Shown here in pieces: positions 16,324-19,485 of a stretch of 64,000 nucleotides of DNA. The DNA comes from Fimbriimonadaceae bacterium. GTDB lineage: Bacteria > Armatimonadota > Fimbriimonadia > Fimbriimonadales > Fimbriimonadaceae. Location of the stretch: positions 434,001-498,000 of the forward strand of contig JAHBTD010000002.1 of assembly GCA_019638775.1 (NCBI GenBank). Direction: 5' to 3'. The notes under the pieces were generated by a model that saw only the letters and a list, made by a program, of their open reading frames with translations, searched no databases and was not told where the DNA came from. Every line of letters starts with the position of its first letter. The stretch's first letter is position 1. The position numbers and the translations under genes are program-made.

Positions 16324-18897
16324 ATGAAACATCCCAAGTATGCCCAGTCGTTTGAAGTGATCCAGGAATTGCCGGAGAGCCTCCGTCAACTTTCGGCGCT
16401 TGCCTCTAACTTTCGTTGGACGTGGCACCACCCCACTCAGGAGCTTTTTAGGAGCATCGACAAGGATGTTTGGGAGAGGGTTGAGCATAACCCGGTTCAG
16501 CTTATCAACTCACTCTCGGCAGAGCGTTTGGATCGCTTGCAGCAAGATGCTTCGATATTGGCAGAGCTGAACTACTGCGCGGGCGACCTTCAGAAGTACT
16601 TGGATGAGGAGCCCTGGTTCGACAAGGCCTACCCCGGCAAGCGCGAGGAAACGCGAATCGCCTATTTTTGCGCGGAGTTTGGCATTTCCGAGTCTTTGCC
16701 GATCTATTCGGGCGGGCTTGGGGTTTTGGCGGGCGACCATTTGAAGGCAGCGAGCGATCTTGGCTTGCCGTTGGTCGGTGTGGGTTTGCTGTATTCACGG
16801 GGTTACTTCCGTCAGGTGCTTGGGGCGGACGGGTGGCAGCAGGAGCACTATCCTCAATACGATTTCTACCGGATGCCGCTAACTTTGATGCGTGGCGAGA
16901 ATCAACAACCGCTACGGGTGGAGGTGGAGTTTCCCGACCGGACCATCGTTTGTCAGATTTGGCGGGCAGACGTAGGGCGCGTTCAGCTTTATCTGCTTGA
17001 CAGCAACGTACTGGAGAATGCTCCGAGCGACCAAGAGATTACCGACACGCTTTATGGCGGCAATGAGGAGATGCGCATTGCTCAGGAGATGATTCTTGGT
17101 GTGGGTGGTATGCGCGCTCTGCGAGCAGTTGGCATTAACCCCACGGTTTGCCATATGAACGAGGGCCATGCGGGCTTTATGATCCTTGAGCGGATTCGCC
17201 AGTTCATGTCTGACAACCAGTGCGACTTTAAGACCGCGCGCAAGGTGATCGTTGGGAGCAGCGTTTTTACGACGCATACACCGGTTCCGGCAGGGTTTGA
17301 CCTGTTCCCGTCTGATCTCCTTGAGCGATACACGGCGAGTGCGGTTAAGGCTCTGGGAATCTCGTTTGAGGAGTTTGTGGCATTTGGCGTGATGGACCCT
17401 GAGAACGAGGGTGAGAAGTTCAATATGGCATTGCTCGCCATCGAGAACAGCAACTACATCAATGGCGTTTCAAAACTTCACGCGAGCGTATCGCGCTCGA
17501 TGTTCCAGCAGAAATGGCCCAACTATCCCGAAGATGAGACACCAATTGAGGCCGTTACGAACGGCATCCACACACTTACTTGGATCAGTCGGAGAATGGG
17601 TGAACTGTTTGACCGTTACCTTGACCCAAGTTGGCGTCGGCGACCGGAGTATGCTTCTTTGTGGGAGGGTGTGCTCGACATTCCCGATGCAGCGCTTTGG
17701 GAGGCGAGGGAGAATCAACGCGGTGATTTGGTTCGGAATGCCCGAGTGTGGCTGCAAAGGGCCCTTGAACATCGGGGGAGCGACCGTTCTGAACTGAGCG
17801 CATTTGATCAAATTCTTGATCCCCGATTCCTGACCATCGGCTTTGCGCGAAGGTTTGCGACTTACAAGCGTGCGACCTTGATGCTTTCTGATCCTGAGCG
17901 GTTGAAGAGGATTCTCTTTCACCCAGAAAGGCCAGTTCAAATTCTGGTCGCAGGAAAGAGCCATCCCCGTGACGATGGCGGAAAGAAGCTCATCCAGGAT
18001 TTGTATCACTTCATCCGGGATGAGGGGACTTCGTCGCGCATCGTGTTCTTGGAGGATTACGATATGTCGGTGGCACGGTCTCTCGTACAGGGTGTCGATG
18101 TGTGGCTCAACAACCCGAGGCGCCCTCTGGAAGCAAGCGGTACGAGCGGAATGAAGGTTGTGCCGAACGGCGGCCTCAACTGCTCCGTACTCGACGGCTG
18201 GTGGGATGAGGGCTATATGCCGGGAGTCGGCTGGTCGATCGGCGAGCGCCGAGACTATTCTGACCAAGGGCAGCAAGACTTTTTCGACAGCCGTTCGCTC
18301 TATTGGCTTTTGGAGAATGAGATCGCACCGAAGTTCTATTCGAGGATGGGCTCAGAAGTTCCGACTGCGTGGATTCAGATGATCAAACGGTCGATCATGA
18401 TTCTCGCACCTCAGTTCTGCACGGGGAGAATGGTATCGGATTATGGGCGACGATTCTATGTACCGGCGAGTGAGTGCTATGGCAACCTTGCGGGCAACGG
18501 AATGGAGCGAGCAAAATCAGCGATCCAATGGCAGGCAAAGGTCGATTCAGAGTGGGGGAAGGTACGCATTCATGAGGTTAACGACAATGCTCCCAGGAGG
18601 ACGACAGTTGGGACCTCAATTCAGATTCAGGCAACGGTGGAACTTGGACCGTTTAGTCCTGATGAAGTCCGTGTCGAGGGTCTTGTTGGGGATGTTGGAC
18701 CGAACCGCGATCTGATCAACATCGAGCCGTTGGTATTGGAAAGGATTGAGGGCGAAGGCAGCCGTCATACGTTCTTTGGCACGCTTTCCTGCTCGCAGTC
18801 CGGGCACAAAGGATATATCGTGCGTGTGAAGCCACATCATCCTGACGTTGTCATGCCGAATGAGGTTGGCGAGGTCACCTGGCAGAGCGGGCATTAG
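16324..18897 (+). CDS. glgP: Alpha-glucan (glycogen) phosphorylase
   Basis: 857 residues of glycosyltransferase family 35, the actinobacterial/archaeal-style alpha-glucan phosphorylase with an N-terminal DUF3417 region (LRQLSALASNFRWTWHHPTQ). It releases glucose-1-phosphate from glycogen or maltodextrins. Seen: YFCAEFGISESLPIYSGGLG, FTTHTPVPAGFDLF, FARRFATYKRATLM and the pyridoxal-phosphate site EASGTSGMKVVPNGG, followed by NCSVLDGWWDEGY. No other glycogen gene is adjacent. It is divergent from livF (177 bases between starts) and ends at a strong two-sided terminator. Confidence 0.96.
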   Translation: MKHPKYAQSFEVIQELPESLRQLSALASNFRWTWHHPTQELFRSIDKDVWERVEHNPVQLINSLSAERLDRLQQDASILAELNYCAGDLQKYLDEEPWFDKAYPGKREETRIAYFCAEFGISESLPIYSGGLGVLAGDHLKAASDLGLPLVGVGLLYSRGYFRQVLGADGWQQEHYPQYDFYRMPLTLMRGENQQPLRVEVEFPDRTIVCQIWRADVGRVQLYLLDSNVLENAPSDQEITDTLYGGNEEMRIAQEMILGVGGMRALRAVGINPTVCHMNEGHAGFMILERIRQFMSDNQCDFKTARKVIVGSSVFTTHTPVPAGFDLFPSDLLERYTASAVKALGISFEEFVAFGVMDPENEGEKFNMALLAIENSNYINGVSKLHASVSRSMFQQKWPNYPEDETPIEAVTNGIHTLTWISRRMGELFDRYLDPSWRRRPEYASLWEGVLDIPDAALWEARENQRGDLVRNARVWLQRALEHRGSDRSELSAFDQILDPRFLTIGFARRFATYKRATLMLSDPERLKRILFHPERPVQILVAGKSHPRDDGGKKLIQDLYHFIRDEGTSSRIVFLEDYDMSVARSLVQGVDVWLNNPRRPLEASGTSGMKVVPNGGLNCSVLDGWWDEGYMPGVGWSIGERRDYSDQGQQDFFDSRSLYWLLENEIAPKFYSRMGSEVPTAWIQMIKRSIMILAPQFCTGRMVSDYGRRFYVPASECYGNLAGNGMERAKSAIQWQAKVDSEWGKVRIHEVNDNAPRRTTVGTSIQIQATVELGPFSPDEVRVEGLVGDVGPNRDLINIEPLVLERIEGEGSRHTFFGTLSCSQSGHKGYIVRVKPHHPDVVMPNEVGEVTWQSGH

Positions 18898-18916: not shown

Positions 18917-18946
18917 AAACGGACATCGAAAACTCGATGTCCGTTT
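18917..18946. terminator. Bidirectional terminator between glgP and the RRM gene
   Basis: A perfect 13-bp stem (18917-18929 paired with 18934-18946) closed by the AAAC tetraloop 18930-18933. The arms start with AAAC and end with GTTT, so on either strand the hairpin ends in a short T-run. It sits 20 bases beyond the glgP stop and 20 bases beyond the stop of the converging gene, the expected position for a shared terminator. Confidence 0.85.
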
Positions 18947-18965: not shown

Positions 18966-19370
18966 TTAGTAACGTCGTCGGTCTCCGCCGCCACCGCCAC
19001 GGCCACCACGGTCTCCACCGCGACCACCGCCGCCGCCTCGACCACCACCTCCGCCGAAGCCGCCACGGTCTCCACCGCGACCACCGCCGCCTCCACCGCC
19101 GTAGCCTCCGCCACCACCACCGCCGAAGTCGCGTGGTCCGCGATCTTCGCGTGGGCGAGCTTCATTGACTACGAGGGCGCGTCCGCCAAGATCGGAGCCG
19201 TTCTTGGCTTCGATTGCAGCGTCCATCTGATCGTCTTCGACATCGACAAAGCCAAAACCACGGCCTTCGATGATTCGTGCAGAACTGGGCTGAAAATCAG
19301 CAAAGTGATCCATCAAATCCTGCTCGCCGGCTGTGTACGGCAGGTTGCCAACGTATAGGCGCTTGCTCAT
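18966..19370 (-). CDS. Glycine-rich RRM RNA-binding protein
   Basis: 134 residues: one RNA recognition motif (about 1-75) with RNP-2 LYVGNL (5-10) and RNP-1 GRGFGFVDV (36-44), then a Gly/Arg/Asp-rich tail (81-134, GGGG and RGGDRGG repeats) ending DRRRY. The layout matches cyanobacterial Rbp and plant glycine-rich RNA-binding proteins, many of which are cold-induced; such proteins act as RNA chaperones. The RGG-like tail may add unspecific RNA affinity or promote condensation. A GGAG lies 8 bases before the ATG and can be paired by an upstream segment (see leader element). It converges on glgP. Confidence 0.95.
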   Translation of the reverse strand: MSKRLYVGNLPYTAGEQDLMDHFADFQPSSARIIEGRGFGFVDVEDDQMDAAIEAKNGSDLGGRALVVNEARPREDRGPRDFGGGGGGGYGGGGGGGRGGDRGGFGGGGGRGGGGGRGGDRGGRGGGGGDRRRY

Positions 19371-19377
19371 TCTATAT

Positions 19378-19462
19378 TCTCCGGTCCGGTAGAAGCCGTA
19401 ACTCTCTTTGCTGAAGCATCGCGGATGAACTGACCGGAGACGCTAACTAGGAGGCGATGCTT
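19378..19462 (-). promoter_or_regulatory. Structured leader (pseudoknot-like) hiding the RRM gene ribosome binding site
   Basis: In the mRNA of the RRM gene, UCUCCGGUC (19440-19432) is perfectly complementary over 9 bp to GACCGGAGA (19386-19378), which contains the Shine-Dalgarno GGAG. A second perfect 9-bp pair, AAGCAUCGC (19462-19454) with GCGAUGCUU (19422-19414), encloses the anti-Shine-Dalgarno strand. The pairs interleave, so together they form an H-type pseudoknot with connecting stretches of 13, 9 and 27 bases, or they are alternatives. This suggests translational control, for example by temperature or by the protein itself. The pairing is seen; the regulation is inferred. Confidence 0.6.
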
Positions 19463-19479
19463 ACCGCGACGCTGTACCT

Positions 19480-19485
19480 ATTTTA
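19480..19485 (-). promoter_or_regulatory. Candidate -10 element for the RRM gene
   Basis: On the minus strand the hexamer TAAAAT (five of six matches to TATAAT) would start transcription near 19472, about ten bases before the first stem strand of the structured leader. No good -35 hexamer is visible at the usual distance, so this is only a weak prediction supported by how well it frames the leader. Confidence 0.3.

Follow-up and report, generated by a model that had tools for sequence, protein, structure and literature searches.

The leader and its two interleaved pairings

We analysed the leader of an RRM protein gene in a 64,000-nt stretch of DNA from a Fimbriimonadaceae bacterium (Armatimonadota; G000:C2:434001-498000, hereafter the window). 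The Shine-Dalgarno (SD) sequence of this gene is predicted to be closed by an upstream strand of its own leader. With roughly even confidence, we read the leader as a translation-control element that acts by SD occlusion, the RRM protein being its likeliest regulator.

Stem A is a perfect 9-bp pair of AAGCAUCGC with GCGAUGCUU (19422-19414), and stem B is a perfect 9-bp pair of UCUCCGGUC with GACCGGAGA, whose strands lie about 50 nt apart. The strands follow one another along the leader in the order A5'-B5'-A3'-B3' (Table 1), and strand B3' contains the SD sequence GGAG, which stands 8 nt ahead of the ATG. An earlier note on this DNA had described two perfect interleaved 9-bp pairs, one of them covering the GGAG; the sequence bears out both statements. 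When the 105-nt leader was shuffled 20,000 times with its dinucleotides preserved, a 9-bp pair of any kind turned up in 1.2% of the shuffles and an interleaved pair in none. The window has no second site of this kind; in 399 kb of DNA from the family, interleaved 9-bp pairs within 105 nt occurred at one other place. At one such site per 399 kb, the chance is therefore roughly 3 in 10,000 per leader. In addition, we found stem A' (AGCGUCGCGG with CCGCGAUGCU, 19424-19415), which has 10 bp including one G-U and a stem energy of -21.7 kcal/mol, compared with -17.3 kcal/mol for stem A. Strand order and loop lengths allow an H-type pseudoknot of A with B (9+9 bp, loops of 13/9/27 nt) or of A' with B (10+9 bp, loops of 23/7/28 nt).

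Predicted folds and temperature

The nested minimum fold of the leader includes stem B and has an energy of -36.8 kcal/mol. Folds forced to contain A or A' without B reached -24.3 and -27.4 kcal/mol, respectively, so the B fold is ahead by 9-12 kcal/mol at 37 °C. Rough Dirks-Pierce style estimates gave -33.8 kcal/mol for the A'+B pseudoknot and -29.9 kcal/mol for A+B, which leaves A'+B no more than about 3 kcal/mol behind the nested minimum. A pseudoknot is thus sterically possible but is not predicted to win over the nested fold. Since stems A and B have no nucleotides in common, they are not exclusive by sequence. The earlier note allowed either a pseudoknot or two exclusive folds; the first is sterically feasible, but the lack of overlap between the stems and the lead of the B fold give no ground for the second. 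The nested folding stability of the leader was ordinary (z 0.23); its unusual feature is the interleaved pair.

We also considered whether the leader is a cold or heat thermosensor of the cspA or ROSE kind, in which temperature would shift the RNA between hidden-SD and open-SD folds, as the earlier note had suggested. The cspA leader of E. coli reportedly has temperature-dependent alternative folds, and alternative pairings do exist in the window leader. However, stem B is perfect and GC-rich, and its fold was the minimum at all computed temperatures from 4 to 55 °C. In silico, more than 99% of the ensemble had the GGAG paired from 10 to 45 °C. The SD is closed in every fold that contains B, and stem A, which does not compete with B for nucleotides, would tighten rather than release it. 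No Rfam thermosensor matched the leader. Given the unchanged SD pairing between 10 and 45 °C, an RNA thermosensor of the cspA, ROSE or fourU type was rejected in silico, and we regard this explanation as quite unlikely.

Predicted masking of the ribosome-binding site in related RRM leaders

RRM genes were present in 113 of 151 genomes, and 171 RRM loci were gathered, including those from a scan of GTDB contigs. The named relatives belong to Fimbriimonadaceae and other Armatimonadota, and among the genomes searched the window's genus was represented by the window genome alone. In the RRM tree, which has few columns and many unresolved forks, the window RRM grouped with L003, L007 and L014 in a small clade (support 96/90) that did not include the paralogue of the same genome at G000:C2:631001.

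Helices covering the SD were stronger in RRM leaders (z -0.79 ± 0.14) than in controls (z +0.09 ± 0.14; p=2.6e-5); the helix statistics rest on simplified stacking energies, and the control set is small (45 leaders from genomes of the same family). A second statistic concerned the region of the ribosome-binding site (RBS), taken as the 22 nt ahead of the start codon, and its pairing with a leader strand. This pairing exceeded that of the controls in the window clade (p=0.001, or 0.0024 without the window) and in the other RRM genes (p=4e-7), whereas the controls were at chance (Fisher p=0.34). The window leader alone was also beyond chance (p about 0.01). The RBS-masking pairs had unrelated letters in different leaders: CUGUUUUGUCCCAUU/GAUGGGAUGGAGCGG in L003, GUUUCCUGUU/GACAGGAAAC in L008, UUCUUAUCGC/GCGAUAAGGA in L125 and AGCUUCUUUGAGU/GUUCGAAGGAGCU in L054. 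Statistically, therefore, a leader strand predicted to mask the RBS recurs in Fimbriimonadales RRM genes with changing sequence. That the relatives mask the ribosome site with different letters suggests that the protein is controlled at translation in these bacteria. Of the earlier interpretation, SD occlusion by a leader strand is supported, in the window leader and repeatedly in other RRM leaders of the order, but the temperature switch and the exclusive folds are not.

A covarying leader class in the sister group

The top 6-mer in RRM leaders was GUUACG, found in 43 of 140 leaders against 4 expected. Within the phylum it occurred in 38/78 RRM leaders and in 0/45 controls; its usual place was directly behind the -10 box, where the 5' end of the transcript is expected. 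In class I, the leader shared by a large sister group, GUUACG stands at the 5' end, a GCCUCC/GGAGGC helix covers the SD, and a second helix, CCGGUUC/GAACCGG, lies within the first. These helices covaried on a sequence-only alignment (score 0.172 vs 0.130 ± 0.013, equalled in 0/500 shuffles), and 73% of cells were paired, compared with 27-53% when the helices were slid. Run against 121 genomes with an E cut-off of 0.1, a covariance model of the class (model R1) found 25 sites, although the E-values are rough and part of the score comes from the SD and start codon. All 25 sites lay immediately upstream of RRM genes, and 12 of them were outside the training set. One site is the leader of the RRM paralogue in the window genome (L002, G000:C2:631226-631350, minus strand), which matched at 95.6 bits. 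We propose the class I leader (L002 and 24 further sites) as a candidate new Rfam family. Because the element is restricted to RRM genes, their own product is indicated as the regulator.

We also considered TATAAT-N4-7-GTTACG as a general promoter element. It had 23 occurrences across 85 genomes, roughly five of them being known RRM leaders, and is therefore not widespread; this candidate was rejected.

The possible pseudoknot arm and the weight of the evidence

The window leader stood alone in its crossing helix (z -4.6). As a property of the family, the crossing helix was rejected, there being no excess in relatives, and stem A is window-specific. The pseudoknot would thus be specific to the window genome, or a product of chance. 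The earlier note had proposed comparing related RRM leaders for compensating changes in both stems. The comparison showed RBS pairing kept with other letters; stem A has no counterpart in any relative, so that no case of compensation in both stems could be shown.

Several results weigh against the leader being a regulated element of the kind proposed. First, where relatives have an SD helix, pairing between the 5' end of the leader and the loop enclosed by it was at chance level (z 0.10 ± 0.14). Second, SD accessibility computed from the partition function did not differ significantly between RRM leaders and controls (p=0.13), and RNAalifold found no consensus fold on a divergent alignment of 34 leaders. 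Third, the p-values for RBS-region pairing given above are optimistic, because related leaders are not independent. Finally, membership of the window leader in class I was rejected, as the model gave no hit up to E 10 with filters. With the filters off, the best score in the leader region was 4 bits; short alignments of the window leader to the class members L038 and L131 gave z 5.0 and 3.4. The GUUACG of the window (19402-19397) may itself be a chance occurrence, because its own clade is without the motif.

Some of these results would fit a constitutive SD structure that does no more than keep translation low, or that ribosomes open, with arm A as a chance complement. Crossing helices are not enriched in the relatives, SD accessibility is not clearly different from that of controls, and one unrelated interleaved site exists in the 399 kb. 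However, RBS-pairing strands are enriched in RRM leaders despite their changed letters, and a passive structure would not need the covarying leader of the sister class, found only at RRM genes. We therefore consider a constitutive structure rather unlikely.

Gene, promoter and leader layout

The product of the gene has a single RRM domain (residues 5-66; Pfam RRM_1, E 4e-12) and a glycine/arginine-rich tail. The earlier note had used a -10 box to set the transcript start. The TAAAAT is plausible, but no convincing -35 was found upstream of it, so that the start near 19473, and with it a leader of about 103 nt, is only inferred. A terminator-like 13-bp hairpin at 18917-18946 lies between the RRM gene and a convergent 857-aa open reading frame (ORF; 16324-18897), and possibly serves both.

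Table 1. Features of the RRM gene and its leader in the window
Feature	Position	Strand	Remarks
RRM gene	18966..19370	minus	134 aa, ATG at 19370; ORF list
Stem B 3' strand GACCGGAGA	19378..19386	minus	includes SD GGAG (19382-19379)
GUUACG in the RRM leader	19397..19402	minus	top 6-mer among the order's RRM leaders
3' strand common to stems A and A' (CCGCGAUGCUU)	19414..19424	minus	complementarity search
Stem B 5' strand UCUCCGGUC	19432..19440	minus	contains anti-SD CUCC
Stem A 5' strand AAGCAUCGC	19454..19462	minus	complementarity search
Stem A' 5' strand AGCGUCGCGG	19464..19473	minus	stronger competitor of stem A; begins at inferred transcript start
Candidate -10 box TAAAAT	19480..19485	minus	sequence; plausible

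Two further explanations arise from this layout. The leader holds a 15-codon upstream ORF (uORF; 19419-19372, minus strand, MLQQRELRLLPDRRI) whose stop lies 1 nt before the RRM start codon. Its AUG is within the shared A strand and its frame passes through B3', so translation of a leader peptide could open stem B for reinitiation. However, no SD precedes the uORF, and uORFs ending near the start were at chance level (14/87 RRM leaders vs 13.6 ± 3.1 shuffled), which makes coupling of this kind very improbable. Alternatively, the inverted repeats, which lie just downstream of the inferred promoter, could be operator sites in the DNA, bound by a repressor or activator, rather than RNA stems. With 31 and 45 nt between them, the arms are far apart for an operator; one of them is also the SD, and the relatives conserve the RBS pairing and not the letters. 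We give this explanation very little credence.

Other RRM leader types

Three other arrangements were seen among RRM leaders. In L036, L039, L040 and L159 (Fimbriimonas and relatives), GATACG boxes are followed by GUUACGGUCGC and by a hairpin of changing letters just before an AAGGA SD. In L046, L057 and L058 (Opitutia), GUUACG and then an (A/G)GCG stretch occur about 38 nt before the start, and an upstream UUCGCU could pair with AGCGA near the RBS. Finally, alignment A3 (L056, L066, L067, L080 and 17 further loci; about 1375-1506; mostly Comamonadaceae) has strongly conserved leaders, in which GGGGCUCC is predicted to pair with GGAGUCCC across the SD, and GUGAU, lying upstream, with AUCGC in the loop. 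These pairings follow the order of the window's possible pseudoknot; the conservation is too high for covariation.

Comparison with known systems

Weinberg et al. (2010, PMC2864571) describe the Chlorobi-RRM RNA motif (Rfam RF01697), a candidate cis-regulatory structure found in the leaders of RRM genes in bacteria. The window leader likewise precedes an RRM gene, but comes from another phylum and has another sequence. RF01697 (threshold 45 bits) had no match in the window or the window genome, whereas a Chlorobium RRM leader used as positive control (L101) matched at 66.7 bits. An Rfam search at gathering and relaxed thresholds gave nothing credible at the window leader, and no Rfam family covers the Armatimonadota RRM leaders examined. 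A literature search on Fimbriimonas and structured RNA found nothing.

Cyanobacterial rbp genes carry cold-response boxes in their 5' untranslated region (cited in PMC9333190). As described there, these boxes resemble the window leader in being a 5' element of glycine-rich RRM genes, and they are conserved in rbp; the passages on them do not mention an SD-masking helix, which is the predicted feature of the window leader. In the E. coli alpha operon (cited in PMC7858274), a pseudoknot at the RBS serves autoregulation by the encoded RNA-binding protein, S4. The pseudoknot at the RBS would be common to both, although the proteins are unrelated, and binding is shown for S4 while it is inferred for the window protein. 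The cspA leader of E. coli, a thermosensor (Giuliodori et al. 2010, as cited in PMC7858274), likewise belongs to the gene of a cold-type RNA-binding protein. Unlike what is reported for cspA, the window leader has one dominant fold at all computed temperatures, and its stems are not exclusive by sequence.

Proposed regulation and its meaning

Our preferred reading, control of translation through SD occlusion, would operate as follows. Complementarity and folding predict a default state in which an upstream strand keeps the SD closed within a GC-rich 9-bp helix. The 5' end of the leader, through A' or A, may also pair with the loop of stem B; the resulting H-type pseudoknot would make the closed state more stable still, and this arm would be an addition found solely in the window genome. 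A trans factor would then shift the balance between closed and open leader and thereby translation. The RRM protein itself, when abundant, could hold the leader closed, giving negative autoregulation, and such autorepression is probably the likeliest reading.

More tentatively, the RRM genes of Armatimonadota may possess an undescribed family of self-regulated leaders, in which the SD-masking helix is constant in role while its letters turn over. Many paralogues would carry a 5'-terminal GUUACG as the recognition site of the RRM protein, and the window copy would have turned pseudoknot. This wider proposal is possible, though doubtful. The binding targets of bacterial RRM proteins, and the control of their levels, are largely unsettled. 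A leader class confined to RRM genes, in which a nearly invariant GUUACG stands at the presumed transcript end, provides a concrete candidate for the sequence that is recognised, and the class I leader allows a simple reporter test of autoregulation outside Chlorobi and cyanobacteria.
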